Source: Lineus longissimus | Taxonomy: Eukaryota > Nemertea > Pilidiophora > Heteronemertea > Lineidae | Reading direction: 5' to 3' | Length of the DNA: 64,000 nucleotides | NCBI RefSeq assembly: GCF_910592395.1 | Contig: NC_088322.1 | Location: forward strand, 6,135,431 to 6,199,430 | In this document: one piece after another, positions 3,165-43,500 of the stretch | Position numbering within the stretch: the first letter of the stretch is position 1 | Layout: every line of letters starts with the position of its first letter | Position numbers and translations under genes: made by a program | The notes under the pieces: generated by a model | Told to the model about the DNA's origin: nothing | The model's input: only the letters and a program-made list of their open reading frames with translations | The model's database searches: none

Positions 3165-6100
3165 CTGGAGAGCAAAAGAAAACAACAACAACAATTAACA
3201 CACAAGCTACAACATTCAAGGAAAAGAGGACAAAGCTCAAATGATATATGGGGGTGAGGGGCATTTCTATTACTCTCGAACCTGCCTTTCAATACATGTA
3301 CACCTTCACACCTTCACCTTGGACATTTTGAGCCTATTTGTGGGAAATTTGGCCGAATAATTGTCACGGCAAGCTGTTGAACTTATTCAGAATTTCAGTG
3401 GCAAAAAACGAAATAGCTGATCAGGGTGATTGCCTTCTTGACGTGGCTTAACGCCTTTAACCCCACAGGATGATAATCCGGCATTAAAGTGATGCTATGA
3501 TGTGATTTACAACTTTGCGGAAATACGTCCGTTTTTAATTGTTGATCACAAATGTAAAGCTCAAATTTTCCATTTTTGATTAGATTTATTATAAAATCGC
3601 TGAATGTAAACCATCGCGACCGCGAAAATGTTCATGTTATGACGTCATCAATGAAAACGTCGTCGGCGTGGGCGGGATTAAACCATCAATTTCTAGAAAA
3701 TGTGCATTTCGATTCGAAAACCTTACCGATTTATGAGAAAGTGACGTAGTCATTTGTCAAAAACAGCTAAAACATTATATGGTGAAATTTGACACGAGTT
3801 ACCCTTTAACTATAGTGACGAATAACCCGCGGGATGGTAAACCGGCTTGGAAATCCCCTTTTTAGATTTGCTCACATACTGAACATAATACGGCACTGCT
3901 GTTCTGGCACATTGATGAGTATCTCGTGGAAAATGATTGTTGTGCAGTACAGTCAGTTTTGCTCTGAGTTTTGATCAAATTGTGGCAAAATGACCAGGAG
4001 GAACTTGACTTTTAAATACTGATAATAACGGGTTTTGACCAGTGATTTTAGGGTCAGAAAAACCTTAAAAGCGAATCTGACAGCGATAATGATAGCTAAG
4101 CTAGTCATAATGACAGATGATATTACAACACACAACTTCCCAGCTCATTCTGTTGCTGGTAGAACATTTAGTGTCAGGATGCCCCATGATAAATGTAGCT
4201 AAAAAGTTGAAAAGGTCAGGTGTGGCTCTGCAAACGTAAGGGAAAGCCAAGACTAAAAACAGCTACCCCACACAGGATGGACAGAAGAGGGGAATAGGGC
4301 TACTAGTTATTACCTATCATTCCAAACCAGAATCATTCTTTTATGTCAAAGAATAAATGTTTTACAGTTTGCACTATTCTGGTGATTTTCATCTGGGACC
4401 GTGGGGTGGGAAGTACAGTGACATCAGGGACCGCAGGGTTCTAGGTGTTAAAGAGGTATCAATGTCAAATTATGAAGTGACCTGTTTATGGCGAATTATT
4501 TGCACTGCCATTGGACTATGTAGAATTGGTTTACCGGCTTCATCACTTGTTCTGTTACGTAAGCCACAAGTGAGATGAGGTAAGCTGCCCACTACCCCTT
4601 GATCGAGGCATCGTTCTTGTAACGGTCATGGCAGCAAGATTAAATCAAACTTTCGTCCTCGAGATAACCTGACCATAACTTACATGTACATGTGTATTAG
4701 ATGTGTGATCAATGGTCATTGCAGTTAAGAAGCATGCCAGAGTTAAAGCCTAACGTACAATTTATGCCATTTCACCTCTGTGACCTTGAAAAGTAGGTAT
4801 ACAGAGGTAAGCCAATACCTTTAACCACCGTGCCAATCTTGTGGCGGGAGTTCAATGTTAGGTAAATAAGATTAATGTTATATCATTGGCCATTTATCAA
4901 ATAATGGTGTTGTAGCAATAAAATGTGATATTTGTGTTTGAGTGATCATGCCAGTGCTTGAGATGAGTTCGAGACTAACACATCGGTGTCCCCTGATGAT
5001 GACGTAAAGTCTGTTCACGCTAATCCCTTTGTTCCACATCCATGGTCTCATCTAACAATACACCAAACTATTACTTTCTCTGTGTTATAGGGATAGGTGT
5101 TCATATAATTTATATCATCATTTCACTATTATAGCTACAGTGGTACAGTAGTATTATATTCTAAATCACCAATTTAAAATGTTTCATTTTCATATAACAT
5201 TCGTGTATAATAGATTATGTATTAGCTTCCTTTTGACCGCAGAGGTTTTTGGTGAGAACACTAACCTCCTGGGTATAAAATGTGTCAGAAATAGCTTCTC
5301 AATGCATTATGCCGAGAACATATCTATCAAGTTTGAGGTTTCTTTAGAATAGAATTGATACTGAACTGGAGTACTGGTTGTCCCAACAAATACCAGGTCA
5401 GGTGGAGAGTTCATTCTGCCCAAACTTCGGCTGCTACCTTATTTTTGGCATACTTTTTATCTAAACCTTCCCATTCTCCAAACACTGGCCACATTATATT
5501 CCAGTATTCTGCTGTCACCATGAATATGCATTTCAACATTTGAAATTCCACACAAGACCACACTTCCTTCTGCTCTAAATAACAGCAACCAAATTCATAC
5601 TCCTAGCAAATGCACCAGAACTCATATCCGCGATGTCTTTTTTTAGCTGCTATGATGTCACAAGATAGCTGACCAGAGGAATGTAATGTTAAGAATGAGA
5701 AAATGACGATGTGCTGACTAACAAGACAGTGGGTTGGAAACTCCAGATAAAGCTGTGGATAAAAAGATACCACTCAATAGCAAAGTGCTACAAAAACACT
5801 CCAAAGTGCAATAGAATCAAATGAGGTTCTCTTCTTTGCAATGAAAAATGCAAATTTCAATCTGAAATTCATATCAAAGTATCATACTATAGACAGATTA
5901 GTTTAAATAAAGGTCCCAATTTTGTTGAACATGTAAGCTCACACTGAAAGCTTTTATAAAATGTTTCATCCCTCACTGCAACCCACTGCACTGAGACATA
6001 ACTGGAACACAACTGGCTTAATAGTCCAGTGATTACCAGTGAAATGTTACTTTTAAGACTTCAATGCTAATCACAGGTAATAGCAATGGTTAACATTGGG

Positions 6101-9100
6101 CTCCGCAGGGAGGAAATGCTGGCAACTACCCTTTCAACACGCCCAACAAGCTATTGTCCATTCATATTATGTTATGTCTGCACCTTTTGGAGCTCTGGAG
6201 GGCAAACTACTGGTCTGATTTCTCTGAAGGTTGTTTTTTATTGGTCTTCCCCTCAAAACCAAACATGATCTATTAATATTACTAACCATGGTAACAAAAT
6301 AATGTTTCACATACATTTGTGTACATTTGTGTGATGTAGTGCATTGAATTGGACATTTTCTGCTCTGTACGGTTTATTTCTCGACCAATCTGGATGAAAT
6401 GTTTAGGTTTTTACAGGGCTGCTTACCCTTATATATTTTGTTGGTGTACGTAATTAAAAAAATGATGCATTTCTTTGAGGGTGGCTTATCCCATGATGTA
6501 GTCATAGAATTAGAGGAAATTAGTGCAATTTTTTGCATAAAGAGCCAACATATTTGAACTTCCCTATTATAGAAAAATCATTTAAAAACGACTTTTCACC
6601 TACAGGAAATTTTAAGTTTCACTGAATCAATTTTATACATAAAGTGCATGAGGTATATCCTTTACCTGGTATAGAATGGCTTGGTGTGGAAATTGCTATC
6701 GTCTGCTATCGAAGTTTGTCGGTCTATCACCAGGTGTCACTGCCAGCACAATGCTGTAGTAGGGCGCACAGCGGAAGTGGAAAGGTCAACAGCCAACCTC
6801 ACAAAAGGAGAAAAAAAATGGAGGCCACGTCTTGCGCTACATCGGGCCCGTTTTCAACGATTGCACGCCTGGGGGTGGAGTTTAGATTACAACATGTTCA
6901 GGGTTTTTTTATTGGGGATAGAAATGAAAAGGCCAAGGATCATTGTTCTCACCGTATAGATATTTGGTGGTTAGGAATTCATGCTGGTTGCTTGGAGTAC
7001 CTACCATAAACATATGATCGAAAAGAAGTCACTAATAAGCAAGATACTGCACTTTCTACCTCTTCAGTTTTTGCCCCCTTGTGACCAAGTCGAGAATCAG
7101 ATCAGACCAAAATTCAGTGTCAGAGGTTATATAACATAGGGTGTCATGTGTATGAAATTTCGAATTCATAGCTTTAGCGGTTTAGTAACGTGCTATAGTT
7201 ACACTCTAACGGTCAATTTACAGCATGTGAACTTGAAAATTAGATCAAATCAAAAACCCATATGATATGTGATGTATCCTTGCTAGGAGAACCTACCATA
7301 AAATTTTTATTGAAAACGAGTCACTTATAAGAGAGATAACACACGTTTTAAGTTTACACTTATGGCCCCCTGCTGGCCAAGTCAAGAATCAGATGGGACC
7401 AAAATTCAGTGTCAGAGAAAACCTGACGGGGGGGGGGGGGGGGGGTCCTGTGTACTAGATTTTAAGTTGATAGTCCTATTGGTTAATAAATTTGCCACTG
7501 TTTTTGAAACAGGATACGGACAACCGACACTGCGGTATTGTATAGGCTCCCCTACGGTGAACCAAAAAACAAAACTTCCAAGAAATCCAACCAGTAGTTC
7601 ACCCTCCAGAGCCCCAAATGATGCAGACATAACATCTATAAATGGGCCAAAGTTGTACTTTTAAAGAGGGCTGAAGACAGTGGTGCTAACTCCATCGATT
7701 AAAACAATTCTTTTCTCACTCCTACACCCACCAGTTCTATCAAACATCTCTAAAATTCCCAAAATGCAGAGCAATCTTCAAGGAGAACATAATTTTAATC
7801 CATTTTCAAAACTAACAGATTTAGCACGGAGAGGAAAGTGAAAAGCCGACTGATAACATAGAGGAGTTTAAAGAAGGAGCTAAAATGTCAAATGCGCTTA
7901 TAAAATGAAAGTAGTTCTTGGTACAGAGAAAATGTTGAAACAGCTAAATTTTGTCAACCTTGTTCTGGGTTAGATCTGGTAAGATTTTGGATGCACTCAT
8001 AGTACATATATAGTAGCTTGACAAAAACATCGCTATTTTAATTGCAATGACACTGGAGCAATTAAGTTACTTGCAACTGAAGCTCAAATAAAACAGAGTT
8101 TTTACATTGGCCTTCGACGTCAGATCAAATAACGATGACAGATGTGTTAGTTTTATGCATATGTGATAAATAGGATTAAGTTACATGTAAGGCAATGACT
8201 GGAAAAAGGTTAATGTCACAGTGTGTTAGTGACATCATCGACCGCATGCTGTCACACAATACATAATGACATCATGATTTGTCAGTGACTTGTATATGAT
8301 GTCACTTGTACCTTGTCTTAGTTTTTTTCACTAGGCTCTGTCATTATTTAAAGCAAGGCCATACAAGTAACATATTCATTACCTATTCTGATAACAGCGG
8401 ACACTGCAGATGTATGGCTTATGACCTTTCCCTAGGAACAAGGTTGACACGTGATCACATGATTGGAAAAGCAAGCTGATGGACGTATCAATCCAAACTC
8501 ATAGCACATACTTACTTCTGGTGGCTAATTTGTCCAATAGGTGGCGATTCAAGATGAAATAATAAAGTGGCTATTCTTATGACGAGTGGTAAACAAGGAT
8601 TTATGTGATTTCAGGGACTGAACTGAGGATTAGGGATTTAATACTAGTGTTAGACTAGGGAAGGGTTAGGGTTAGGGTTAGTGCTAGGAAAACGGGTTAG
8701 AGTGAGGGAGGGATAGGGTGAGGGTTAAGATTTAAAACACTCAACGTGAAAATGACTTTCGTCAGAATAACCAGCAGTTTATGGGTAAAATGCCGTATGG
8801 TAAAGTGTCGTAAGAATAGCCACGGCGGTGAAATAAACTTAAATACAGGTATTAGGCCACACTTTTTTAATAAGTTGGATTATAAAACTCATGTATATTT
8901 TTTATCAATTTTGTCTCAGATCATACAAGGGGACCAAAAAAAATTGAAATTGGTTGAAATTGGTCGCCGGGAAAAAAATATTTGTTCACTTCTCTCTATT
9001 CTATGACCGGGGAGAGTAAAAAGTGTATCAAAAACGGTCATTGGGACTTATATTTCTTTTCTACTTTCAGGAAACTGACCCAAAGGTGATTCGTAATCCA

Positions 9101-12100: not shown

Positions 12101-15100
12101 TCTTGGAGCAAACTATAGGAATTATGCAGAATAGAGAATGTCAAATTAGCACAGGCTCGGCCCACTTTTGCTCTCCACTCGGTACTAAATCATCTCAGTG
12201 ATTTCATCCTGAAGTGTATTTTACAATTCATTGGGTTTTATGCGAGTGTTCCACCATGCATTCCTGAAATCCTATCAACACGTTTCCATTTACCTTCCCA
12301 ACAAAAAATTGGCACCAGTGGAGCAGCTTCATTTTAGTTCCTGATGTGTTCTCGACATATTTTCATCCAGACTCATTCCAGGATATTGTTTTTTTTCACA
12401 CAAGGAGTCGTAGTTAGCCCACACTATTTAGAGAAAGTAAATAAGCTACATGCAGCTTGTAGGCCTTTATATCAGGCTTTGGCCCCGATGCATTTTGTGT
12501 GTACATGTTGTTCTGATAAGTAATGGCTAAATTTAACTCTTGTGGGATGGAACAACCTGCTTTTCAAGGTCCGGACTCCCACTCCCAGTTTAACTTGGAG
12601 CAGGAGTGCGAGTCAGGACAGCACGCAACCTCTCTAGTATAAGGCTCCTTACCTGAACCTGCCTGACCCCCCCCCCCCCCCCAATTACCCCCTCCCACTG
12701 AATACTCACCCCAGGTCTCGGTAAACTCATGTAGACGTTCTTTTCATTCTTGCCCTGGTTGATGTCGTTTATATCCTTCACAAGGATGGAGAGCTCGTTA
12801 ATCTGGCTTTCCCAATTATCGCAGAATACATCAAAGTTTTCCTTGGCGATTTTACTCCCTCCGTTTTGGGCAAACGCCTTCGCTGCATATATTGTCTGTA
12901 ACGGAAATTGATGACGGAGGTCAAAATACAGTGGAACCTCCCATAGCGGACACCTCTCTATTAAGGACAACCTCTCTATTAAGGACACTAGTTTTGGTCC
13001 CAAATTGGTCATTTCCATTCAATTTGACCTCTCTAATCAGTACACCTCTCTATTAAGGACAGCACTTGTCAGTCCCATGGGTGTCCTTAATAGAGAGGTT
13101 CTACTGTATTTCAGCACATCAAGATACACAAATTTGCTCCAATTTTTTGTAGTGAAATTAGTTCTGTAGAACATAAAAGCAGAAACAGTAACAAGACATG
13201 CGTGAGAATGGGCAACACCGTCAAGAATTGATCAAGTCTATAAAGTCTTTATTGATTCTTATTGTGCATACCTAAAATTTTGTAAACCCCATTCATGAAG
13301 TTGTTTTCATAGTGTTTTTGAAAAACATGACACGTCTTCAACACACCAGGGTTAATAATCCCAGTGTGCTCCAAGCTACAAGAACGGCTCAGCTCATCTA
13401 GCTGGTTGTGACAGGCTCAAGTGCTCCAAGCACTCTAGTTCAAGACCCAACAATTCAACTTTGAGAACGTTTTATAAATTTTTTTGCTGATAAGTGATAT
13501 ATCCAGCAACTGACCTGTGCTGAAGACCATCTCTTTATCACTGTTTCGTTTTTTCTTCTTTTTTCATTTTTTAGCAACAACACTTTATTTTACTGACAAG
13601 CATTTTGCTTGGCAGAGGCTGAGTGGACCAGCTTGACTGACACTTTTGGCCTATTTGAGAACATATCACCTTTAATTTTCTTCGTGGATAGAATACTTTT
13701 ACTTTCCACCTACTTGGGAAGATTTCCTTCTTTTACTTTTCACTTACTTGAGGACATAACACTTTCACTTTTCACTTACTGGGGACATAAAACCTTCACT
13801 TTTCACTTAATACCTAGGGACATTACAGTTTTACTTTTCATTGACTACGGGACATTATACCTGTACATATAACATATTTTCTTTTCACCTACTTGAGGAC
13901 ATATAACACATTTACATTTAACTTACTTGAGGACATATAACTCATTTACATTTAACTTACTTGAGGACATATAACACATTTACTTTTCACTTACTTGAGG
14001 ACATATAACACATTTACTTTTCACCTACTTGAGGACATATAACACATTTACTTTTCACCTACTTGAGGACATATAACACATTTACTTTTCACTTACTTGA
14101 GGGCATATAACACATTTACTTTTCACTTACTTGAGGACATATAACACATTTACTTTTCACTTACTTGAGGACACATAACACATTTACTTTTCACTTACTT
14201 GAGGACATATAACACATTTACTTTTCACCTACTTGAGGACATATAACACATTTACTTTTCACTTACTTGAGGACATATAACACATTTACTTTTCACCTAC
14301 TTGAGGACATATAACACATTTACATTTAACTTACTTGAGGACATATAACACATTTACATTTAACTTACTTGAGGACATAACGCTTTTAAGCTATTTTCTA
14401 CATGTTCAGCAGTTATCACAAGGGGGCCAGTCGTTGCTATATGTCGGAGAAGCTTGGCAACCTGAAAAGTGGATCAACACTTTTGATGATCATTTGATGA
14501 CAGGTGACATTATTTTCATGACACTACTCAAACTAGTGTGGTAGAGCAGCTTTTATGGAGAATTTATAACAGCCTGGGAAGACAATGCACAACCAACAAA
14601 TGAATAAATTTAACAAGTAACAGCAGAATTTGCAAGTTAGTGCAATTCTTTGGTTTACGGGTCCGCCAACATTGAAAAATGCCAAACCGAAACATACGCC
14701 GCCGACGGACGCCACGTCATCGCATAGGCTCACAAGGTGCGCCCAAAACGTGCCCCCATGTTGACAGATGGAAGGACAGACGCCACTTTGAATAGTTATT
14801 TTACCAGCTCTGCTGACTTTTGTCAGCCGAGCTAAAAAAAGTAGTTAATACCACGCCTACTGGAAAGATTACAAACTATCCGATGCTATTGTTATTTTGG
14901 ATGAGTGTTTTTGCATGCTGGTAAAGTTAGTCACCCACTTGGTTTCTTGGCCTTGTGACTCTGTCTTCAGCCAGCAGACTATTCAAAGCTTTAAAAAAAT
15001 CATCCAAACCCAGTCTACAGACCTCTTGCAGTTGTTCAGAATGCTCCTCAAATTTAACGGTAATCTCGTTCACACGGTCCACTTCACCGTTCAATCCCGC

Positions 15101-18100
15101 CGTTTTTAAGGCCATCAGTATATCATGATCCTCGTTGGTTTTGAACACGTCAGATGCCTGATCCATTGCCGTCTCTTGAAGCTGGAACACAAAAACAGGC
15201 CGACATGAACACTTGGAAACGATCCTCAGCATAAACTTTCAGGTCAAAGCCAGTATCATTGCATGGTAGGGAACCGTATCTCCCAACACATTTTTAGTTG
15301 TGCCCTGGGGGTAATGGGTATATTCAGCAAAAGATCAAAATGAACATCAGGATCATTCCTGAGTGCTCAGCTTTTGCCTTAACCGGGAATGAATATTTGA
15401 CCAATCAGCTTTAAGGTGACTTCAGAGCATTCTGCAGAGACATACAACAAGTAAAACCATACATTCAAGGGATTACCATTCACCTACTATTTGCAACATC
15501 TCTTTTTCTGATTAGGTAAGGAAAGATTCTGAGAAACTAAATTTGACACATTCAAAGAACTTTTAATTTGGCCGCCAGTTTTAGGACGATTTTGATACAC
15601 TCAATGGTAAGATTTTTTGACGTTACTTGGCCACCTGTCTTGACCTCATCTATGCCTGGGGCATCGGCGGTCCGGCTATATACTGTATATGGCGTAATGC
15701 TAGATACATATGCATGACTACATCCATACTGTAGAATGCTAGACTAGCTGTTTAACTAACTGTGTCATACTGAAATGACTCACCAACAATTGGACAATCA
15801 GACAACCTTGAGAATGACGGTTCCTTACCTGCTTCTTCAACATTTTGGAAGCGTCTACTGTTTTTAAGATGGCAGTTTCTAAATCTTGACTAGGTATGTT
15901 TATATCCTTCTGATCCTGAAAACAACAAAGCAATCAAGACTAATGTATTTTGGCAGAGAAGATGTACGGTTTAAAGTTAATAGGAACCCAGTGACTGCCT
16001 TTTGAGGCGCGCGATCGCGCCCGCGCACCATCGCGCGCCTCAATTTTTTTTAGGTGAATGAAACATCGCGCGCCTGCCCTTTAAAATGCATTAAAAAATT
16101 GCGCGCCTAAAAAATGATTGCGACGCAGTGGAAAGTGATGCTAATTACACAGGGGTCAGTAAGTCAGACATTTCAATTATCGAACTATTTTTGTGCTAAA
16201 GACTAGGCCATGATAGACAGAAATTATAGAAACCGGACGCGACTGCCGCAGGTGCACGAGCCGAGATGCAATATTCCCGCCGAAATTATATACTCAAGAG
16301 AAGACATACTATACCGGTACTCCGACGTAAATCTCGCAGTTCTGGAAATATCTTTGCGGTAGTCTCGCGCGTACCGGATATAACCCATCAAGCTTTTCTC
16401 CTTCAGAGAAATACTGCGTTGCGCTCAAGTGCCTTATAAGGCTGTGAACAAAATTAACGTTCGACCAATGAGAAAGCCACATTACCCTGCATACGAGGTT
16501 GGACGCGTGATCACTTAGTGACAAGTAAAAATAGAATCAGACCACATGTTTCTATATGTCAGAATGCTGCCGTTTGCGCTGTAGTACACGTGTGTTGTCC
16601 AAATTTTCGATTTCAAGCAAGTTTAAGGCCAACCTCGTGTCCACCAGACTAACGTTGTCGATGGATACCAGAAGAAAAGTTGGTTGGTGGTAAAAAAAAC
16701 AGTGCACCTAGGATTTTATGGTGCACTGAAAACCATGCACCTGGCTTTTTCAAAAGGCAGTCACTGGGAACCCATGGTGGTAGTTTGTTGATATAACCTG
16801 TGTGATGCTGACATTTCGCAGTGCCAGTAACATGTGTGTACGATTCATGTTTTTTTTATTTATAGGCCTGTGCTCTGTTCGGACACATCCTTATATAAGC
16901 ATAGATCTAGTTCCACCAGAATTTTTATACTCGTCCCATTCATGTACACAGCTGTGGAGTTGTAGGGTTGAAGAGCGATTTCTCCACTTGCTTCTAAGTT
17001 TTCCATCATTTTCTTTCCAAGCAATACGGAAGGACTATAGATGAGTGCAATTTTTTGCTAAACTTTTTCAGTGTGCAATCTATCCCCAGACAGACTTCCC
17101 CCATTGTCTGTGGGGTGATTTTTCTGGACTAATATGCATGGCATGGCTCTAGGAAAATTCGTCCCCGGAAAATTTTCCTTGGGGACGAATTTTCCTGTAA
17201 CCGCATGGCATTGACTTCCATTGTTTTTCATGGAACTGTGAACATTGTTCATATGTGATATTGTTATCATCATTGTTGTTATCATCATCAACAAGCCCTG
17301 TGGCGGCCGCGAGGATCAGCAGCTGAAGTTGCACATGTATAATGTGTTGCCATTCGTTTGTGTTTTGATGCATCATGTTCCTGGGCCAGGTTGTTCAAAA
17401 CAAGTGTTGTCACTAATGCTGGCGTTCACTTAAAGCGAACTGGAACGGCCAAGCCAGTTCGTATGATCTCGTTTTCATTTCCCGCGTATCGGGTGATCAG
17501 AGCGAGGCATGAATGAAACATGGCGCCTAGCTGTCAATCATTCAGTGACGTCACTACTATGGAATTTACTACGAAAATTCATGAATGAAAGATCGCATGA
17601 CTCACGTGATTCTCACATGATTCTCAATAATAACAAATTGAACTGCGCACGCTCGGGCACTGGGGGCGGAGCTACAAATCTGAACTCGACTTTCTCGGGC
17701 GGTGAAAGTCGAAAAGTTGAATAAATCGCTCGGCGGTTCCAGTTCGCTTTAACATGGTGTTAAGTCTAAAGGCTTAGCTGAAGGAGATAAGCCAAGTTAA
17801 GTAAACGCCAGTAAGCGTTAGTGACAAAATTTGTTTTCAACAACCAGGCCCTGTTCTGTTCAAGGCCTTGAACTGCAACTTTTTCATCGCATTATTTTAT
17901 TTCTGGTTCCGCGGATACCCTAAACTAAGTGCCAAGCGTCAAGAGCCACGATCACCTTTTTTTTACAGGACAGATAGGCGTATGTACTTGTCTATCACTG
18001 CGCCATCTATGCGATCTTACTGGTCAACGTTACGGTAGGCCTACCAAATGCTATCGAACACTTACTTGTTTTCAATGTAAAATCACCGGCAGGCCCCAGG

Positions 18101-21100
18101 CGATTTTTCTGGGGAGCTGGCATATCAGACCTATATACTAAATTTTATTAGAGTACAAGAACTGAACCAGAAGTTAATATCAACCCCTGAAGTTCGGCAC
18201 ACTTTTTTTTACCCAGCAGATATCTCAATGCAAACACAAGAATTTAACGGAAGAAACTTACTAAATTTGTTCCTATCCGTAATAGAGTATTCAGTTCTTC
18301 CCGTAATTTTTCACATAGCGTCAATATTCGTTCTCGGTGGTCATGTGACGTGTAGGCAGAGTCTGTGAAGTCTTGAGTCGCTTCGATGAGCAGCTCTAAG
18401 GCACTAGTTAGTTTCCCTTGAGTGTGAGGCCCCACCATTGTCATTCTTGTTACCTCCACTAAATCCTGCAATGTGAGTACGGAGAAAAGTTATCGAGACA
18501 TTGGAGCGAGAATGCACTCTCGTCTTTCTCTCCATTTAGCGTACAACAGGGACTTAGAATAATGATTAACAGAGCTAAATCAGATCGTTGAAGTCCATGG
18601 CCAGCGGTAAGAAAGCTAAATGCCTGCTGGTAAATACTTACATCAAAATCCTTCAGGCATTTACTGACAGTGGTATGAGAGTGTGCTAGACCGATGCCCG
18701 AGTCCCCGTTCACAGCTGTCAGTGTCGGTGAGATGTCGTTGCTGATAGGTGCTGTGTCTGTTACGACATGATGTACCAGGTCCATGGCGTACCGCATCTG
18801 CGTGAATACGCTATCACGGTTGCGTTTTGCCGCCTCGCACTCTGGATGTCGAAGCTGACACTGAAGAATATGACAATCGTTGCAACTTTTCCGGCTTGGA
18901 AAGATTTCTATTCAAATTTATAGTTTAACCTTTAACTCATTTTATAGCCTTTGCCGAGTTTGTTGAATACCACAATGGTATGGTATGCACACCTCTCTGT
19001 TAAGGACAGCACTTGCCAGTCCCGAAGGTCTCCTTAATAGAGAGGTTCTACTGTACTTTGAGCAAGATTGAGAACTGATTTTTAGTACAGCAAGTGGGTG
19101 AAAACTTTCTGGTTGAGGGGATATTCTGAGGGACCCGATAGGGGCATTGGTTACGGGTGCTGTGTTAGCCAGAGCAGCCCTTGATTATAAAGGGAATTTC
19201 AAATGAAGGTGACCATGGTCTGTCTAAAAGTGTCCTAACCCAGCTTTCAATACTTGATGAATCTGAAGGGGCACTCTTGGCATGAACTATCAAGGAACTG
19301 CTCATGGTGCTGAACCTCTAGCTTGCCAGTTGACTAGGTGCCTTGCCCAAGACGTTGCTAGGAGAACACAGGCTCAGTGATATTGTAATTTGTTCCAGCC
19401 ACATGGGAAGATCTCTGGCGCAGTGGTAAGAGCACCGGGCTCATAATCAGGAGGTCGTTAGTTCAATTCTCGGAAGGGTCACCGCTGTTTCATCTTTGTG
19501 TCCTTGAGCAAGGCACTTTACCCTACTTGCTTCTCTCTACCCAGGAGTACATGGGGACCTAGCTGGCAGAGATGGCACAGTATGAATGTTAGTCCTGAGC
19601 GCTGTAAAGCTGCAGCTCAGACCTGTAATACTCCCAGTGAGTAAAGCTTGAACTAAAAATGTACAGGCCAATAGCCAGGGGTAATAATGTGAAAGGCTAC
19701 GAGTGACCGATACCAGTTGGATATAGCGCTAAGTCTCATTATTATCATTAGTATTGGGCAGTTAAAACATGTGTAGGCCTATCTGATTTCTTCTTCCGCG
19801 TTTGGAGGCCTATATCAAAAACAGACCCTGCTATGCCCTGCTTTTTTTTAACGTCTGTGGACACTCCATGCTATATATTTTGTATAGCCTATTACTGAAT
19901 TCCCCCTGATAATGGGCTGAACGAATAAAATTGATTACGGATGACCAACATTTCGACAGATACATAATACTGGTGTCAATACATGTATCTTCAATCTATT
20001 GGGAGGGGGGTTTAGGTGTAATATTTTTAAATGTCCACAGACAGAGTGTTCCAGGGATAATTCAGTCTTTGGTCGTGTCCTTGGGATACGCATCATTTTT
20101 ACAAACCTGGCATGTGCCGTATCTCAGGACCCCAACGCATCAACTCACTTGGTCGACAGTAAAATAAACAATGATACATGCTACCATCGGCCAATTTACA
20201 CTATCTGACCTCTGTCACCTTGAAAAGAGTAGGTGAAAAACCTGTATGGTGTGATGTATCCTTTTTCATACACACACTATAAAAAAGTCGTCGCTCTAGC
20301 AACAACCATTTAGCTTTAAATTTGACACAGATATGTACCCAAAACCACAAATATACTGGTCACCTACCTTACATGATGTCAATAACATCACAGTGTTTTT
20401 CTCAAGAACCGCTCGAGCCGCACCCATCTCGGCACGCTGCTTATCACTTTTTAAATCCTGAAAACAGACACAATGTCAAATCATTTCCACAGATCGATCT
20501 CATGAAAGCCTATACCATGAACATGCAATTGCAAGGACAACAATCAGACCTGACTGCCTTGGGCATGCTGGGTCTCCCTACAAGGGTCATAACTTCTCAG
20601 GGTAAGTCCAACCAGTCACTCCCTGAATGATTAACTTCATGATTCTTGTACAGCTATTTTTTCTTCTTCCGTGTTAGCTCTGCACTTGGAGGTGTTATTA
20701 TCCAGGGAGTACTCCCAAAAAAATCATTTGTAGCCTGCATGTTAAAATAAAAGTTGCCCAGCTCCCAGACTACTTGTATGCGAGGGTAACAACTCTGTAG
20801 TGCTATCAGGTGGCTGACAATACATTCTGACTCTGCCACTCTTCTGATCTTGCTCCCAAACCATATCTTACATTTTGTCTGTCTCCCGTTAAGTGGGCAA
20901 GGTCCACCATCTCATTTCCAAACTGACTAAATGCCTTCACAAAATCTGTAAACGTGGCCACTCTTTCTATAAGATTTAAACTTTTCGCAACCTAAAACGA
21001 GAGATGAGACGTGATTCAAAATCTTCTCAAGATAAAACCCCTGCACAATCTTGAGCCCAACAGCATTTCACTGCAATCATATACACCATTGGTTCTGACG

Positions 21101-24100
21101 TCTCAAATAAGAGCATTTGATGCAAAGCGTGGCATAGGCCCTCGACTATGTGTTATCTGTGTGCGTGTCTGAACGAGAGAAAATGCTGTGTAAATTCAAG
21201 ATGGCCACCGTTGTCGCCGCTTTTCGGTAAAATGGCAGCGCTGATTAATGAGAGGAAGCGTATAAATGTATGTAGTGGCCACCAATGCACCACAGAAAGT
21301 TGGAATCGAACGGCGAAACAAAATTCAAGATGGCTATCATAGCGGCCATGTTTGAAAAGTGACGAAGCCAATTTTTGAAATGAACCTTCTCTTAAATGAC
21401 TCCAGACATGATCAAGGCAAATTGCAACGTATGCCCCGCTCCATGGGCACCAGGGACTCTGGTTGTCACTGAACTAGTTCTGAAGTTGTGGGGAGGAGAA
21501 GAAAGATGGCAGCCTGGCAGCCATATCGAGTTTTGTGTCGGGTCGTAAATGGATAGGGAAGTTCCGCTTCACTTGACCATCAAATCATAGAAGCTTCAGG
21601 TCTGACACTGACTCAGTTCAGGAGTTATGGCGTGGAATGCGGAAATCAAATATGGGGGCCGGTCGGCCATAGTTGGTTTCTCGGTCTGGTTCAAAATCAA
21701 TAGGGCACTTCCCCTACCCGAGGTCATCCACACACGATACAGGTCTGTCACTCACTCGGTTCTCGAGTTATGGGACGGAATGCAAAAACGAAGATGTTGG
21801 CCTGGTGGCCATGTTGGATTTTGGGTTGGGTCTAAAATTGATAGGGAATCTCCCTTACCCTTGGACATCAGACGACATTTAAGTTTCAGGTCTGTCACTC
21901 ACTTAGTTCTCGAGTTATGGGGCAGAATGCGAAAAACAAAGATGGCGGCGTGCCGTGGCAGCCATATTGATTATTGGATCGCGACGATTTGTGAAATGAA
22001 CTTTCCCCTGGTCACTCCCAATAAACCAAAAAATCAGTGGTTCAAGCGAGGTGTTGACGGAAAGAGGAAAGTAACAGTCACTGACACATGGACCACTACA
22101 TAATGCTCCCTGATTTCTGTCGGGGGCAAAATAATGTCTTGGACAAAATCATAAGTGGTTTGTGTGACTGTTAGTGTCAGGGCAGTTAGTACCAACCTAT
22201 TCCAATAAAACCTTTCTTTGGCCACCAAATGTTATGTTTCAGGTCAACAGCATCACATGTTGGACTGCTCTTGCACTCATGAGGAAAATCCTTCATGGTC
22301 ACTCTTGAATAGCCAGGAATGCTTTTTTAACAAACCACTCAAGTAGGACATCAAAGAACATTCTGGCCCCTATGACATATACAGTGGAACCTCTCTAATA
22401 AGGACACCCACAGGACTGATAACTGCTGTCCTTAATAGAGAGGTGCCCTGATTATAGAGAGGTCAAATTGAATTGAAACAACCCATTTGGGACCAAAAAT
22501 AGTGTCCTTTATAGAGAGGTTGTCCTTAATAGAGAGGTGTACGCTAAGGGAGGTTTCCACTGTATTATCTTAATAAATGCAGTGATTCAGTGGCGCTCTT
22601 CCCATACAGTCTCACTGAGAACCTACAGCACAATTTCAGCTTTGCATTAACTTGTTGCCAACAGACTTCCTCAGCACCAATTTAAAACTTCAGTACCAAA
22701 GGAGCACAAATCAAGCTTTTGGGCCGACTGACCTTTGTGACGAAAACTCCATGTTCCTACCTTTTCCTTGGCGATGAGTAACTGTTTTACAACAACCCGA
22801 TCCGCCAACAATAGCACCTTCGTAACCGCCGACAATAATATCCGTGCCGCCCGCACCATAGCTGTCTTCTCTGCTCCCTTCACCTGCCCCGTCGCATCAA
22901 GCTTCACGTCGGTGAGGACCTGGATATTTTGTCCCGCAATCCGTGCCTCCCGACAAGCCTCGCACATGTCCATCCGGATTTCTTCATTTTCTTCAGCAAT
23001 CGCCTCTCCAACGGAGACGAATCGTTCAATGGCAAGATTTACGGCCTGTCCGACGCGTATCAACGCCTTGAGAGTTTTCTCCGATTTAATTGCATTATCC
23101 CGGTGGTTCACGAGTGTCGTAATCTGGAAGTACAAAAGTTTCAAAATTGTCAACATCACAACAATTATGAACTTGAAAAATATTTTCTTAATCTTATGGC
23201 ATCTTTGGTAAAGTTAGTTAGAGCCAATGGCAATGGGTTAAGGAAATGGGCTTTCAGAATCAAATGCGATTTTATGGAAAAGGGTACATCTGACTCTGAA
23301 TAAAGAAAAAGCAAATATTTGCATCTAATAGGACTGACTGACTGGTCCGATCTGACCTCATTAATCACTTGTTTGTAAACACCTAGCCAGCTTTCATCAT
23401 AACGATAAAAAAGTTGATTTCTACACAGTCAATGTTAATTATCACCTTGACGTTTCAAATGGTTACACCATTCTTCTTCAGAAGTTACACGTCTGACCGC
23501 TAGATGTTGTAGCGGCCATTCTCTGATCCCACACGTGACTTTAAGGTCTGTAGCCCCTTCGTCTTGATTCATGTTGGTGGTTTTACGAATCCCAATCGCC
23601 TCCTTCACCCATCTCGTAAATCGTGTTGGCTCTCTCTCCACCACTTTGCTTTGTTCCCAATCAATGATATGATTGTCCTTGGCTACATGATCTGTGATGG
23701 CCGATTTGTTAAGCTCACTCAACGAAGATTTTCTATTGGCCTGAGCATATCTACGATCTTTTACAGTCTCTACGTCTTTCTGGTGTTCTTTCATCCTCAC
23801 CGAGAACTTTCTGCCAGACTCCCTGGTTGTCGCAACTGGCACAAGGATTCTACAGTGTCAAGCATATCTCCTTTGTCCGTTGGCTTCACCAATAATTGCC
23901 CTAAGGACTCTGGAAGTGTGTGGCCTACATGCTGTAGCCACCCCTGCTATCCTCATGCACTGTTCTACTGTCTCGGAGTCACCTTGTACGAAAGGCAAGA
24001 CAGTTAGTGGTTTAGTCCTGCTATCAGAATTTCGAGCGTCCTCCTTAGGGTTGATCTTATTGTCCTTACGTTATGTCATTTGTTGTACGACACGATTGAA

Positions 24101-27100: not shown

Positions 27101-30100
27101 TTTTAGTTACTAGGTCAAGGTCAAAATATTATGAGCACTATGTCAAGCTTGATAATATCAATCAATGATGCACATTTGAAGATCACACAGTGAAAGTTCC
27201 TTGACACAGTGCTGCTTAGAGATAACCATCGCCACAGGCGAGGCGATCTGCGGAAACCACCGCAGGTGAACCTCAATTAGCCACTTCAAATCCGCACTAC
27301 AGTGTGGTGAGCGTGAGGTCAGCGCAATTAGGCAAAACAACATTCAAAAGAAATGCTGACAAGCGTAATTCATTATAATAGGGCTCTTTTAGTCACCACC
27401 TGTGTGATTGACAATGAATAGTTGGTAATCCGTAGCATAATCCAAAAGTTCGCAAGAGGCAATACCAGCCCAAAAAGCGCAAAACCTTGTCAGTATAATC
27501 AAAATGAAAAGGCCAGGGGCCATTGTGCTCACCGTACAGATATTTGGTAGAAGAATTCATCCTACCCTTTCAGTTATGGCCCCCTAGTGGCCAAGTCGAG
27601 AATCAGATCAAACCGAAGCCGAGGGGTACCCACACACCAAGTATAAACTTTCTTGGTCAAGTGGTTAAGAAACGTGCCACTCTTCTGTCAAAAGTTAACA
27701 AATGACGACAACGACGGAAGCCACGGTCATGACGGTATCGTATAAGCTCACCTGACAGTTGAGCTAAAAAGTGAAAAGAGCTGTGTGCACAACAATCTAT
27801 ACCCAAAGAATATGAACATTTAAATCGCTGTAGTGTAAAAACTCAATATCGGCCTTCACATATGCACCCAAATGTGATCTATTCACTCCAACTCCCACAA
27901 CTGTAGATATTTGAAACGTTCACAATACCAATTTCCGAAAGGTCAAGTTTTTACTGTCTAACAGCATGAAATTGCATCCCAACCAGCACTTGAAACCCCT
28001 GGTAACTGATTCCCCCATCATGCGATGGACGTCCCCTTCCCTCCCCAAATTAGCTATCTTTCATCAACAACAAATAAATAGGACATCACCCTTGGCTATA
28101 AATTTCAAGTGACAGTTAGCCACACTGTTCAAGTCTTGTTCTGAATGGTAACATTCGTTCTTCAATCTGTCAGTTGCCATTACAATATGATTGATACTCT
28201 CTGGAGTAAATCATCATCATGTGTAGGCAAGTATCAACATAGCACTCTATAGTACTCGCTGAATGGTAGACCTGAGAAATAATTGGCAATACTTAGTAAT
28301 TGGTGGTCATTAACCAAGAAGTATGCAGAGTTCTGGTTTGAGTACTGTATACATATACAGTAGAACCTCTCTATTAAGGACACTCTCGGACCTGACAAAT
28401 GCTGTCCTTAATAGAGTGGTGTCCTGATTAGAGAGGTCAAATTGAATGGAAACAACCAATTTGGGACCAAAAGTAGTGTCCTTAATAGAGAGGCTGTCCT
28501 TATTAGAGAGGTGTCCGCTAAGAGAGGTTCTACTGCACATATCAAAATTAGAAAGAAGGGCAAATAAAACTATTTCGTTCCAGGCAACAAGGACAGAATA
28601 CGACTGCATGGTTTACATCACGAAGGATAAAGAAGAGGGCACCAAGCAATTGCCTCCATTCATTTTGTTCAGTTTTATACAGTAGAACCTCCCTCAGCGG
28701 ACACCTCTGCCAGGCGGACACCTCTACATTACGGACACGTCCGGCCAGTCCCGATTTTTTCTAAGTCATTTCCAATAACAAAAACCTCTGTACGGCGGAC
28801 ACCTCTCTATTCCGAATTGCGGACAGGGCGATAGCCAATTTTTGGTCCAATTCCCTCCCAATTACGGACAGTAGGCAAAAACAATGGCTTCCCGCGTGCG
28901 CTTGGAGAGTCGAGTAGGCCCGACAGGTGTGATATTTGCGTAATTAATCAACGTAATTACCCCATGGCATTGTGTTTTTGTATCCTAATTAAGCCGTGGC
29001 ATTTGTTTACTCATCTTTTCAACTAATCACATAGGCCTATTGCATGTATTGTGTCAACGGACACTCATAAATCCACGCGGTTTTGTCAGTGTTGCGGCGA
29101 ATATGCGTTAGTAGAGAAATTAGAAAAAATTAATTATTAATCAAAGGTGGCTGATGGACAGAAATTATGGTGTTTTTTCACACATTATGACATGTCGGGG
29201 AGATTTTGCAATACAAGGGGCACCTTTTACTAGAGAGATTATTCACGCTCTGAGTTCCAAAGTAGCTCACGTCATTCAACGCAACATCACAAGCAAATAC
29301 TGATCAGCCAACAGGTTTAAAGTTTCTACGCTAGATGTCGACACAGAGAAAACCAAGACCTGCAAGGCGGGAACTTCAAATTCACCTCTGGGACGATTTG
29401 GCATAACCTCTCTAGTGCGGACACCTCTCTATTGCGGACACCTTGGCCCAGTCCCATGGGTGTCCGCAATAGAGAGGTTGTACTGTACTTATCACACCAA
29501 AATGGCTGATTAAAGCAGCAACTTTTATGGGACACAGTATACACTTCATGTAGCTCTTACTTGTATTATGCAAGTGACATGTAAAGGTGATCATGCCTGG
29601 CCTGAATTTTAACAACCAGGAAAAAGAGCTTGCCCGTCTAGACATTAATCTGAGAGACGAAAACACCCGTTTCCTCAAACTCTGACAGTTTGTGACTTGG
29701 TCTCAGGTTGGAATGAATTACAACTGCCAAAGCAATCGATAGAGATTGAATCAATTCTTGACATTCTCAATAGACATTTTTAATCTCTTGAAATGAATGC
29801 TCCCTTATTCACAACGAATGCTCCCATTGTGCGCTATTCTTAATTGATCTATGTTGTTAGGTTTTATGTATCCTGGCCAAAGCTGTTGTAAACATAAAAT
29901 CTTACAATCATGCACACAAAAATCCCTCATTAGCTGCTAGACGTTCTGATACTATTTATAAAGCACCGCGCAAACAAGTGATTTAAATCGCTGTGACCTG
30001 GAATTGAAATCGCGGCTATGAGTTGTGCAACAAAACTACCTCGCGACCTGTGATTTGCTGTTAGAAAAATAATCTACTATTGACTACAGACTGGCAACTG

Positions 30101-37500: not shown

Positions 37501-40500
37501 GGGGACCAAAATTGAAAAGGTACTAATAAGTGCAATATCTAGTTTCTTAGTGACTTGTTTTCAATAATATTTTTATAGTAGGTTCTCCAAGCAAGAATAA
37601 ATGTCGTCCCGATTTTGATTTGATCTATACATGTAGCATGTTTCTTAACCAGCATGAATTCCTAACCACCAAATATCTATACAGTGAGCACAATGGCCCC
37701 TGGCCTTGTCATCTGAAAATTTCTGGGGATTTGTGGTGTATGTTTCATCCATCTTAGCCTGATATTGAACCAATGATTCCTCCATTTTAACCTGTTATTG
37801 CACCAATGATTCTCCTATCTCACTACGGTATCACACCAATGATTCCTTTATCTTAACCTGGTATCAAACCAGTGATATCTTTATTGGTGTTGTCTATGAT
37901 TCCTCCATCTTAACCTGGTATAGCACCAATGATTCCTCCATTTTAACCTGGTATCACACCAATGATTCCTTTATCGGTGTGGTCTATGATTCCTCCATCT
38001 TAACCTGGTATAGCACCAATGATTCCTCCATTTTAACCTGGTATCACACCAATGATTCCTTTATCGGTGTGGTCTATGATTCTTCCATCTTAACCTGGTA
38101 TAGCACCAATGATTCCTCCATTTTAACCTGGTATCACACCAATGATTCCTTTATCGGTGTGGTCTATGATTCTTCCATCTTAACCTGGTATCAAACCAAT
38201 TATTCCTCGATTTTAACCTGGCATCAAACCAATGATTCCTTTATCGGTGTGGTCTATGATTCCTCCATCTTAACCTGGTATATAGCACCAATGATTCCTT
38301 TTTATTGGTGTGGTCTATGATTCCTCCATCTTAACCTGGTATAGCACCAATGATTCCTTTATCGGTGTGGTCTATGATTCCTCCATCTTAACCTGGTATA
38401 TAGCACCAATGATTCCTTTTTATTGGTGTGGTCTATGATTCCTCCATCTTAACCTGGTATAGCACCAATGATTCCTTTATCGGTGTGGTCTATGATTCCT
38501 CCATCTTAACCTGGTATATAGCACAGATGATTTCTCTATCTTAACCTGGTATCACACCAATGATTCCTTTATCGGTGTGCTCTATGACTCCTCCATCTTA
38601 ACCTGGTATAGCACCAATGATTCCTCCATTTTAACCTGGTATCAAACCAATGATTCCTTTATCGGTGTGGTCTATGATTCCTCCATCTTAACCTGGTATC
38701 AAACCAATGATTCCTTTATCGGTGTGGTCTATGATTCCTCCATCTTAACCTGGTATCAAACCAATGATTCCTTTACCGGTGTGGTCTATGATTCCTCCAT
38801 CTTAACCTGGTATAGCACCAATGATTCCTTTATCGGTGTGGTCTATGATTCCTCCATCTTAACCTGGTATATAGCACAGATGATCTCTCCATCTTAACCT
38901 GGTATAGCACCAATGATTCCTTTATCGGTGTGGTCTATGATTCTTCCATCTTAACCTGGTATATAGCACCAATGATTCCTTTATCGGTGTGGTCTATGAT
39001 TCTTCCATCTTAACCTGGTATCAAACCAGTGATTCCTTTATCGGTGTGGTCTATGATTCCTCCATCTTAACCTGGTATATAGCACAGATGATTTCTCTAT
39101 CTTAACCTGGTATCACACCAATGATTCCTTTATCGGTGTGGTCTATGATTCCTCCATCTTAACCTGGTATCACACCAATGATTCCTTTATCGGTGTGGTC
39201 TATGATTCCTCCATCTTAACCTGGTATATAGCACAGATGATTTCTCTATCTTAACCTGGTATCACACCAATGATTCCTTTATCGGTGTGGTCTATGATTC
39301 CTCCATCTTAACCTGGTATCACACCAATGATTCCTTTATCGGTGTGGTCTATGATAATTCCATCTTAACCTGGTATAGCACCAATGATTCCTCCATTTTA
39401 ACCTGGTATCAAACCAATGATTCCTTTATCGGTGTGGTCTATGATTCCTCCATCTTAACCTGGTATAGCACCAATGATTCCTCCATTTTAACCTGGTATC
39501 AAACCAATGATTCCTTTATCGATGTGGTCTATGATTCCTCCATCTTAACCTGGTATCAAACCAATGATTCCTCCATCTGAACCTGGTATATAGCACCGAT
39601 GATTTCTCTATCTTAACCTGGTATCACACCAATGATTCCTTTATCGGTGTGGTCTATGATTCCTCCATCTTAACCTGGTATCACACCAATGATTCCTTTA
39701 TCGGTGTGGTCTATGATTCTTCCATCTTAACCTGGTATCAAACCAATGATTCCTCCATCTTAACCTGGTATATAGCACCGATGATTTCTCTATCTTAACC
39801 TGGTATCACACCAATGATTCCTTTATCGGTGTGGTCTATGATTCCTCCATCTTAACCTGGTATCACACCAATGATTCCTTTATCGGTGTGGTCTATGATT
39901 CTTCCATCTTAACCTGGTATATAGCACCGATGATTTCTCTATCTTAGCCTGGTATCAAACCAATGATTCCTTTATCGGTGTGGTCTATGATTCTTCCATC
40001 TTAACCTGGTATCAAACCAGTGATTCCTTTATCGGTGTGGTCTATGATTCCTCCATCTTAACCTGGTATATAGCACAGATGATTTCTCTATCTTAACCTG
40101 TTATCACACCAATGATTCCTTTATTGGTGTGGTCTATGATTCCTCCATCTTAACCTGGTATCACACCAATGATTCCTTTATCGGTGTGGTCTATGATTCT
40201 TCCATCTTAACCTGGTATCAAACCAATGATTCCTCCATCTTAACCTGGTATAGCACCAATGATTCCTCCATTTTAACCTGGTATCACACCATTGATTCCT
40301 TTATCGGTGTGGTCTATGATTCTTCCATCTTAACCTGGTATCAAACCAATGATTCCTCCATCTTAACCTGGTATATAGCACAGATGATATCTCCATCTTA
40401 ACCTGGTATCACTCCAATGATTCCTTTATCGGTGTGGTCTATGATTCTTCCATCTTAACCTGGTATATAGCACCGATGACTCCTCCATCTTAACCTGGTA

Positions 40501-43500
40501 TCACACCAATGATTCCTTTATCGGTGTGGTCTATGATTCTTCCATCTTAACCTGGTATCAAACCAATGATTCCTCCATTTTAGCCTGGTATCAAACCAAT
40601 GATTCCTTTATCGGTGTGGTCTATGATTCCTCCATCTTAACCTGGTATAGCACCAATGATTCCTCCATTTTAACCTGGTATCAAACCAATGATTCCTTTA
40701 TCGGTGTGGTCTATGATTCCTCCATCTTAACCTGGTATAGCACCAATGGTTCCTTTATCGGTGTGGTTTATGATTCCTCCATCTTAACCTGGTATATAGC
40801 ACAGATGATTCCTCCATCTTAACCTGGTATAGCACCAATGATTCCTTTATCGGTGTGGTCTATGATTCCTCCATCTTAACCTGGTATATAGCACCGATGA
40901 CTCGTCCATCTTAACCTGGTATCACACCAATGATTCCTTTATCGGTGTGGTCTATGATTCCTCCATCTTAACCTGGTATATAGAACCGATGACTCCTCCA
41001 TCTTAACCTGGTATCAAACCAATGATTCTTCCATCTTAACCTGGTATATAGCATCGATGATTTCTCTATCTTAACCTGGTATCGCAACAATTATTCCTTT
41101 ATCGGTGTGGTCCATGATTCCTCCATCTTAACCTGGTATAGCACCAATGATTCCTCCATTTTAACCTGGTATCAAACCAATGATTCCTTTATCGGTGTGG
41201 TATATGATTCCTCCATCTTAACCTGGTATATAGCACCGATGACTCCTCCATCTTAACCTGGTATCACACCAATGATTCCTTTATCGGTGTGGTCTATGAT
41301 TCTTCCATCTTAACCTGGTATCAAACCAATGATTCCTTTATCGGTGTGGTCTATGCTTCCTCCATCTTAACCTGGTATATAGCACCGATGATTTCTCTAT
41401 CTTAACCTGGTATCGCAACAATTATTCCTTAATCTGAACCTGGTATCAAACCAATGATTCCTCCATCTTAACCTTGTACTGCACCAATGATTCCTTCATC
41501 CATGCCGCCCCTCAGTTTTGAATTCATCTTCAAGTTTTTTTACAAAACTCTTGTCTTTTCCAGGATGGTTGTTTTCTTTGAAGATTGTGTGAGAAAAGTC
41601 GAAATGCACCAGCGGATAATAAAACTCCAGAAAGTTCTTGAAAATAAAGAGAAAGAGTTCTTGGCTTTGGAAGAACAAGAGAGAAAGATCATAGAGGGTT
41701 GGTAGTCTATAGGACATTAACCTTTATAATGCATGACTAAATTAGGGACAATTTCAGAAAGTGGTATAGTTGAATAGTGTCAATAGTTATGATACTTTTA
41801 GAACCATCACAAAGGACTTGGCAAGAGCTTTCATATGAATGGTAATGTGAATAGGGTTTGACAGTTCTTGTTGTTTTCTGCACAATTTCACTGTCTTACA
41901 CTTAGCAGCTTATGATGTGATAAGAATAGTAGACCAGATATTGTTCGGGATCCCAGTTGATCAATTGGTGTTAGAGACAAATGGCATAGTCTGTCAGGTG
42001 GAGACTCATGCATTCAATTTGTGAGTCTGCCTTCGGATTGGCCAAAAGTAGGGACAACATATATTACAGAGTATGGTCGTCGAATTTGACCATGAAATTT
42101 TATATTGAATCAAATCTGGTAGTGCATAATAATAATAAAATTTGTGTAATTCATGAATGAAAGAGACAGCTCATATGAGGAACTAACAGTAACTGTTAGC
42201 AATTTCTTCGCGCTGTATAGAACATTTGAAACTGATCAGTTTATTCGGAGGCGAAGATCGTGCCACAACAGAATCCTGTTGTGGATAAGAAAAATGAAAT
42301 CATTTCAAATTAGCCCCACTGGCAGTGGCGGACCAGCGCCATCCATGGGGCCTGTTGCTATAAGGCTACATAGGGCAGTACTAGCTCAGCTGAGCGTTAT
42401 CTCCTTCAGTAAATTTCATTTACAACAGTTGCATTAGGGCGCCAACTTTCCCTACTAATGCAGATTGAGCAACTTGGACCAAGTTGGCTGTGGGCTGCAG
42501 GATATCTTATAGCTAATATTAGTCTGCTGCAGATGCGCTAAATAGACATTCTCTCGATCATGTAAACATTCTTTGGGTTTTTTTCAGGCATTCACTTGGA
42601 GTCCTCGAGCTCTGAGTATGAGACGGATGAAGATGAAGATGAGACTCACAGGAGTAACATCAGCATTGAGGTGACCCCGCCTGAAGCGCTCATTGAGTCC
42701 CCGGCACGTCGGGCAAGCATGCTGGGTAATCAGTTCGTACAGATGTTCGCGCCCGACTCCTGTGCATTGACAGATGTCGGCGCAGTCAGTCCACGCCCAG
42801 AGCGGTTTCGTGCTTCGCCAAGTTTCGGGCGCAGGTTTCTTAGACGGCAGGCACCGTTGGAAAGGGATTATAAAACGAGCCAAGATTTTCAAAAGATTTC
42901 GCCATGTCTTGTACGGAAGGAGCGTGGTTTTCAACCTATTTCGTCATCGGATGATGAATCTGGAGATGATTCAAAAGAGAAGTCTGAAAGTCAGAAAGGT
43001 TTAATGAAAGACATTGCTAAGGGTAATATTAAGATCGTTCCTAAGGCTGATGTCAATATCGTTGCTAAAGTGAAAATGGAGAACCATAAAGTTACTGGTA
43101 ATGAGTCAAAGCAAGCCGCAGGTGAGACCGTTAGTCACGTCGATAGCATTGATGATAGCGGCTTGCATGTTGTTGTTAACAAGAAGGCAGCAGCAGTGCT
43201 CGGCCTCTGCGACATGACGCCAGAATCGCAGAAAGTCCGCAAACGTAGCAGCTCGGGTTCACACGATCCGTCACCAGTGCTGGAACAGGGTGAAGGACAG
43301 GGGCAGAGCAGCTCTCCTAAACCTGCACCAGAAATTAAGGCAGGTGGTTGTGAGACTGATTTGACTATCGGTAAGAAGGCAGCACGTTTCCTTGGCTTGT
43401 GCGAGCCTGAACTAGAGTCAAAGAAACCGCAACGCAGTCACTCTGCAAATGAAAAGGACATGGTCCGACCAAGTTCTGAGATTTTCGCACTCAGAAATGA

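Follow-up and report, generated by a model that had tools for sequence, protein, structure and literature searches.

The CTNNAL1 gene and exon 9

The window, a 64,000-nucleotide stretch of Lineus longissimus DNA (G000:C15:6135431-6199430 in an assembly of 391,118,348 bases), carries the gene CTNNAL1 on its minus strand. The spliced model comprises 10 exons and nine introns, all of which are phase 0. An exon 11 is located at 3164-3108, beyond the 10-exon model, and the window does not include the later exons, which are in L003. An NCBI alpha-catulin-like protein from L. longissimus (P0121, 705 amino acids) matches the model at 100% over the part that they share, except for two extra residues (CQ) that P0121 has at the start of exon 5. 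A second possible acceptor for this exon is found six bases upstream, at window 18855-18860, and NCBI isoform X1 has the extra CQ. P0121 begins at residue 84 of the model, and thus the full protein is expected to be ∼788 amino acids long (705 + 83). The Branchiostoma catulins among the matches listed are only 52%–55% identical to the CTNNAL1 of the window.

Exon 9 (14461-14369; 93 nt, with both ends in phase 0) is preceded by ttttcag and ends in ...LKALCPQ, and P0121 is identical in this region. It is flanked by exon 8 (15023-15181), whose end ...CAAGAG|GTCTGT was set with the help of P0121, and by exon 10 (12710-12895, TIYAAK...), its acceptor partner. Intron 9 (12896-14368) is 1473 nt in length and phase 0, and about half of it consists of a repeat array. 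The start of intron 8 (GTCTGTAGACTG, window 15011-15022) reads in frame as VCRL, which resembles the start of exon 9 in several homologs (VCKL, ACRL), whereas the spliced protein has VAKL. This is perhaps chance, or perhaps a relic of a junction that has moved.

Anatomy of the 34-bp array

The array starts within exon 9 and runs into intron 9 (13865-14379, minus strand; TRF period 34, 15.1 copies, 95% matches). The authentic exon 9 5′ splice site, CAA|GTAAGT (14363-14368), is the first of 15 donors that follow one another in exact 34-bp steps from 14368 to 13892. Ten of these are GTAAGT and five are GTAGGT, and the preceding CAA is retained in all 15 units. An earlier reading of this DNA from sequence only had given this same exon end (14369), donor (14368), unit count, and pair of donor classes. 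It had also proposed that ∼12 exonic bases are included in the first unit. The exonic bases common to exon 9 and the array unit number 11 if no gap is permitted, in keeping with that estimate, and ∼20 if a 2-base insertion in the unit is allowed. The length of ∼500 bp given earlier applies to this homogeneous block, but missed an older, decayed section that extends the array to ∼13640.

This older section (13640-13864, lower edge approximate) holds about seven units of roughly 26–35 bp, in which three donors survive (13779, 13747, and 13713). The decayed units score 111 against the unit consensus, whereas 532 other stretches of the window reach at most 38.5. Within the young block, the mean divergence is 1.7 differences per 34 bp (14 young units), and the most variable column is donor position +4 (5 of 15). 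Two unit types are present, GTGAAAAG and GTTAAATG. The latter occupies units 1–2 and 13–14 of the 15, a placement that unequal exchange could give. All 15 young units have two extra bases (TA) relative to exon 9, which would shift the reading frame of the exon, and the best-preserved old unit (13779-13748) lacks TA, like exon 9 itself.

The match between exon 9 and the array unit has a score of 23, which was reached in none of 2000 shuffles (best 22). When 19 splice sites of CTNNAL1 were tested, a second copy nearby was found for the exon 9 donor only (score 56; the other 18 score ≤20). The fact that these 18 sites are not copied nearby excludes chance as the source of the exon 9 junction copies. 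A 725-bp query covering the array matched only its own locus in the genome (two matches in 391 Mb, with very common words skipped), and thus the copies elsewhere that would mark a dispersed satellite or transposon-borne repeat were not found.

P0121 reads ...KALCPQ|TIYAAK..., and therefore exons 9 and 10 are joined at the first donor in this annotated model. Splicing from any of the later donors would extend the reading frame by VS followed by a stop. The in-frame stop after residue 478 that had been predicted from the sequence is accounted for exactly, since the 474 residues of the model and the CQ make 476, and VS followed by TAA completes 478. The truncation that would follow, given earlier as the C-terminal third, is somewhat larger, since ∼39% of the ∼788 residues would be lost.

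By a simple pairing energy, calculated with a U1 sequence that we assumed, the authentic exon 9 donor (A at −1) is moderate, at approximately −5.1 kcal/mol. Donors 3, 5, 6, and 8 of CTNNAL1 are similar, whereas donors 1, 2, 4, 7, and 10 are stronger (−9.2 to −11.5 kcal/mol). Masking of the decoy donors by RNA structure was ruled out, as the array RNA folds less well than its shuffles (z +2.46).

Boundary arrays in other animals and at other exons of the genome

Tandem repeats at exon–intron boundaries have been described in the amphioxus gene Adh3, for which they were named "mirages," with further examples in the globins BflGb6 and BflGb9, PGBD5, and troponin C (PMC3087553, PMC3902484). These reports give unit lengths of 10–72 bp for Adh3, 150–160 bp for the globins, and 60 and 108 bp for PGBD5. 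They state that splicing is undisturbed for troponin C as well as for Adh3 and globin, and for PGBD5 they presume that it is. In BflGb6, the inner units are described as homogenized, with the cluster boundaries left out.

The CTNNAL1 array shares the structural traits of these mirages. It spans an exon–intron boundary, with 11 bases of exon 9 and the donor lying inside 13865-14379, and a splice signal is carried by every in-register unit (15 of 15). Its 34-bp unit falls in the minisatellite range known from Adh3. Concerted evolution with the boundary unit excluded is also evident, given the low divergence of the young units and the exon copy without TA. To judge from the published descriptions, the nemertean and amphioxus arrays are alike in having tandem copies of a boundary, many with splice signals, and in the range of their unit lengths, which is the same or close to it. 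They differ in that the host is a nemertean, that one donor is present in 15 + ∼7 copies, and that about a dozen further loci are affected. The array is therefore novel in its host phylum, copy number, and recurrence within one genome, but not in kind. Among the papers listed from the open-licence literature searched, none is on mirages in nemerteans by title.

Other systems offer partial parallels. Human minisatellites with units averaging 30 bp and four copies overlap exon–intron boundaries in genes that belong to primate segmental duplications, and an alternative transcript accompanies 66% of the modified introns, according to PMC2812944. The placement across a boundary is the same as in CTNNAL1. 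For Cryptococcus, intron gain by tandem duplication or repeat expansion has been reported (PMC2395259), and this model is also taken up in PMC3087553. As in the cases outlined there, the tandem DNA copies in CTNNAL1 bear splice signals. However, no new intron is seen in CTNNAL1, as the phase of intron 9 is 0 and its protein junction lies where the homologs align. The CeRep25B intronic minisatellite of Caenorhabditis elegans is linked to splicing and over-represented near regions of alternative splicing, as described in PMC4039745. Unlike CeRep25B, the CTNNAL1 array was found at a single locus and includes an exon edge.

Arrays of this type were sought in one haplotype of the L. longissimus genome with two patterns, the looser of which called for three ARGTRAGT motifs at minisatellite spacing and the stricter for three perfect, spaced copies of AGGTAAGT. 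The strict search gave 110 matches, and the 100 that were listed represent 14 distinct arrays and one family on C17. The sequence upstream of all 14 was read, and an apparent exon end is present at the start of 10 of them. Together with the looser search, comparable exon-end arrays are found at about a dozen loci besides CTNNAL1. These loci were identified via their donors, and this biased sample therefore establishes recurrence rather than frequency.

Five of the 10 strict loci have significant Pfam matches. These are PRKDC (L037, 44-bp array; DNAPKcs_CC1-2, E 1.4e-12), EDC3 (L044, 41 bp; YjeF_N across the junction, E 4.2e-12), a carboxylesterase (L050, 47 bp; E 7.5e-7), CCDC93 (L058, 40–42 bp; E 3.1e-39), and a lectin that we take to be ERGIC-53-like (L056, 54 bp; Lectin_leg-like, E 1.6e-21). 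The exon overlaps of the last two were judged by eye. No significant Pfam match was obtained for the other five, which are unnamed genes: L041 (45 bp × 14; sub-threshold match, 0.008), L052 (52 bp; 0.093, not significant), L053 (40 bp), L054 (31 bp, ∼40 copies by span), and L055 (49 bp). We counted L055 as a mirage though the real donor is gone from its copies (GTACGT to GCACGT), in which GTAAGT is found nine bases farther along.

The looser search added the SMG1 gene (L035, G000:C1), which has an array of 28 bp × 5.5 at 3875-4028, and TRF revealed a second one of 84 bp × 5 at 6750-7172. The exons leading to the first array match Pfam SMG1 (E 2.2e-24), and for the exons that surround the second the match is to solved SMG1 (best E 4.6e-5). 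In the 84-bp unit, GTGAGT follows 78 nt of exonic sequence. The frame remains open across all three units examined, and use of later donors would therefore insert 28-residue repeats.

Thirteen cases can thus be compared (CTNNAL1, the two SMG1 arrays, and the 10 others). All 13 have a reading frame without a stop before the donor, and acceptors precede 11 of 11 exons, although this is a consistency check given that exon starts were picked at a nearby acceptor that leaves an open frame. A stop occurs within 90 nt past the donor in 10 of the 13, and in four of these (CTNNAL1, the first SMG1 array, EDC3, and the lectin) it lies before the second donor. No stop was met for the 84-bp SMG1 array, L052, and CCDC93, the last two of which were covered only a short way past the donor. 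Only three of the 13 periods are multiples of 3, which together with the stops suggests that most of these arrays are not coding devices. Their sequences differ and their periods range from 28 to 84 bp, as would be expected of a genome-wide habit. The presence of arrays of unrelated sequence at other exon ends favors a general DNA process over a device of CTNNAL1. In the EDC3 protein P0237, the join GGKNR|LNPKN falls on the first donor of that gene's own array, and first-donor joining is thereby seen in both genes that can be checked, CTNNAL1 and EDC3, in each case in an annotated model.

Several loci were not counted because no convincing exon precedes the first donor (L036, L038, L040, L043, and L049), although 41–51 codons are open in one frame or two before that donor in L036, L038, and L049. 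Also left out were L039, L042, L045–L048, L051, L057, and the C17 family, for which three of seven listed places were read. This family is a 54-bp donor-bearing repeat found at least at seven places within G000:C17:208931-790229, one of which (L060) lies, as judged by eye, downstream of a Rho-type GTPase-like exon. Two large 53-bp arrays share one unit on different chromosomes (G000:C4:11998087-12000479 and G000:C6:11308287-11314282), and many of their copies carry GAGGTAAG. They are possibly another junction-derived array that has spread.

As a control, the donor pattern was searched for backwards. The strict pattern gives 110 overlapping matches versus 154 backwards, and the looser pattern 419 versus 474. 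When distinct arrays on C1–C6 were compared by eye among the matches listed, there were seven with the donor pattern and at least eight with the backwards pattern, whose listing ends inside C6. The idea that tandem arrays are specially enriched in donors is rejected for now, since the control yields about as many. Minisatellites are dense in this DNA, as TRF reports about three with a period of 20–100 bp and at least three copies in the 64-kb window. The control and this density indicate that the genome is rich in minisatellites and that donor-bearing arrays are not in excess in the part compared. If the genome has 200,000 donor sites, which is our assumption, then a rough estimate based on the density in this one window is that ∼300 arrays in 391 Mb would edge a 5′ splice site by chance. 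Such a number suggests that chance placement would suffice.

Origin of the array and its possible roles

The position of the exon 9 end is coding in all catulins aligned. The exact LCPQ also occurs in another nemertean, Tubulanus (P0122), and in catenin alpha-1 (ALCPQ), and is absent from the five non-nemertean catulins compared, which have GPL, THQ, GPQ, or SPQ at this place. The coding status of this position and the LCPQ of Tubulanus and catenin alpha-1 argue that the exon end predates the array and that the array is derived from the exon.

The best account is that a tandem duplication happened to take in the last bases of exon 9 together with its 5′ splice site. Slippage or unequal exchange would then have expanded the duplicated unit into the intron, so that the units farthest from the exon are old and decayed, whereas those adjoining it form a homogeneous young block. 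The likely order is an early duplication of the junction without TA, followed by the spread of a TA-bearing unit beside the exon. Splicing would have continued to use the exon-most donor, with the later copies tolerated.

If the copies mattered as donors, then the old units should have kept them. Across the seven old units, matches to the consensus amount to 81% in the donor hexamer, 93% in the next hexamer, and 69% in the exon-like part; with seven short units and a gapped alignment these figures are indicative only. Preferential conservation of the donor copies was not found in these units, as the adjacent hexamer is better kept. We favor, with a probability of roughly 0.8, a neutral expansion that started from the edge of the exon, a mirage in which the first donor is used and the copies are tolerated decoys. 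Some observations sit less easily with a neutral expansion. The young block is very uniform, which selection could produce as well as recent turnover, identical donors spaced 34 nt apart could in principle compete, and the NCBI proteins that speak for first-donor use are annotated models.

Three roles had been put forward in the sequence-only reading, of which that of a neutral decoy array fits best, whereas the two regulatory ones gained no support. One of the latter holds that use of downstream donors would lead, via the VS-stop, to decay of the mRNA or to a truncated protein, with copy number setting the share. Such a graded brake could draw on 15 donors that match the authentic one from −3 to +6 except for A or G at +4, on a stop carried by every extension, and on copies that are not hidden by RNA structure. 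In addition, human genes with boundary tandem repeats show alternative transcripts (PMC2812944). However, we consider it unlikely, given that the join in the annotated protein is at the first donor, that the old units show no preference for keeping donors, and that similar arrays lie at unrelated exons. Amphioxus globin RT-PCR and Adh3 data also suggested no interference, according to PMC3087553. A broader version of this idea, to which we likewise assign a low probability, is that the multi-donor introns of the bootlace worm (∼4 to ∼40 tandem donors at exon ends in unrelated genes, including SMG1, which encodes the kinase of nonsense-mediated decay) are tunable leaks into decay. Downstream use would be low and would rise with copy number, and the in-frame 84-bp unit of SMG1 would yield proteins of variable length.

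The other regulatory role is that U1 snRNP, kept on the intron by the string of donors, suppresses premature polyadenylation. A U1 reserve built from a donor as moderate as that of exon 9 would be weak, and of the gene's ten donors five (this one included) are no stronger and five are far stronger. Thus, although 18 donor-like sites (15 in register and three in the old tail) are packed into ∼660 nt of a 1.5-kb intron, this role is very improbable. The longer introns 1 and 10, in their parts within the window, have no comparable array by TRF, and donors decay in the old units.

A process that duplicates DNA preferentially at 5′ splice sites, for example through R-loops, pausing, or repair at transcribed splice sites, would account for the apparent exon ends at 10 of 14 strict donor arrays among the matches listed, in unrelated genes, and for similar arrays being reported repeatedly in amphioxus (PMC3087553 and PMC3902484). 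We nevertheless regard a special process of this sort as doubtful, because arrays of the donor 8-mer are no more common than those of its backwards control, total matches are higher backwards, and the local density of minisatellites makes chance placement plausible. Assemblies can mis-size short arrays, but an assembly artefact is hardly credible for an array of ∼0.5 kb with ordered unit variants and no other genome copy found. PMC8593623 describes a Hifiasm assembly from 79-fold PacBio long reads. An alternate haplotype has been deposited as GCA_910592375.1, according to the same source.

The CTNNAL1 array, then, is real, ordinary in kind, and most likely neutral, and is a useful test of donor choice. 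Even if neutral, 15 near-identical donors at one exon and about a dozen similar exons constitute a natural experiment on how one 5′ splice site is selected from several equal ones. Lancelets are not alone in having mirages, which occur in a distant animal as well. Their presence in a nemertean fits the view that they are a residue of random tandem duplication in introns, tolerated while the exon-most donor works.

Other repeats are present in the window. An array of 3.7 kb (37740-41499) is composed of related 33- and 57-bp units (ATGATTCCTCCATCTTAACCTGGTAT...) and has long open frames, and an open frame of 856 codons from stop to stop is located nearby on the plus strand (42566-45133). An element with direct repeats like GGACAACCTCTCTATTAA occurs at 12948-12987, 22503-22538, 28476-28516, and 29406-29443. 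By eye, a similar element is also present at the lectin locus (L056) on another chromosome, and it looks like a mobile or dispersed repeat.
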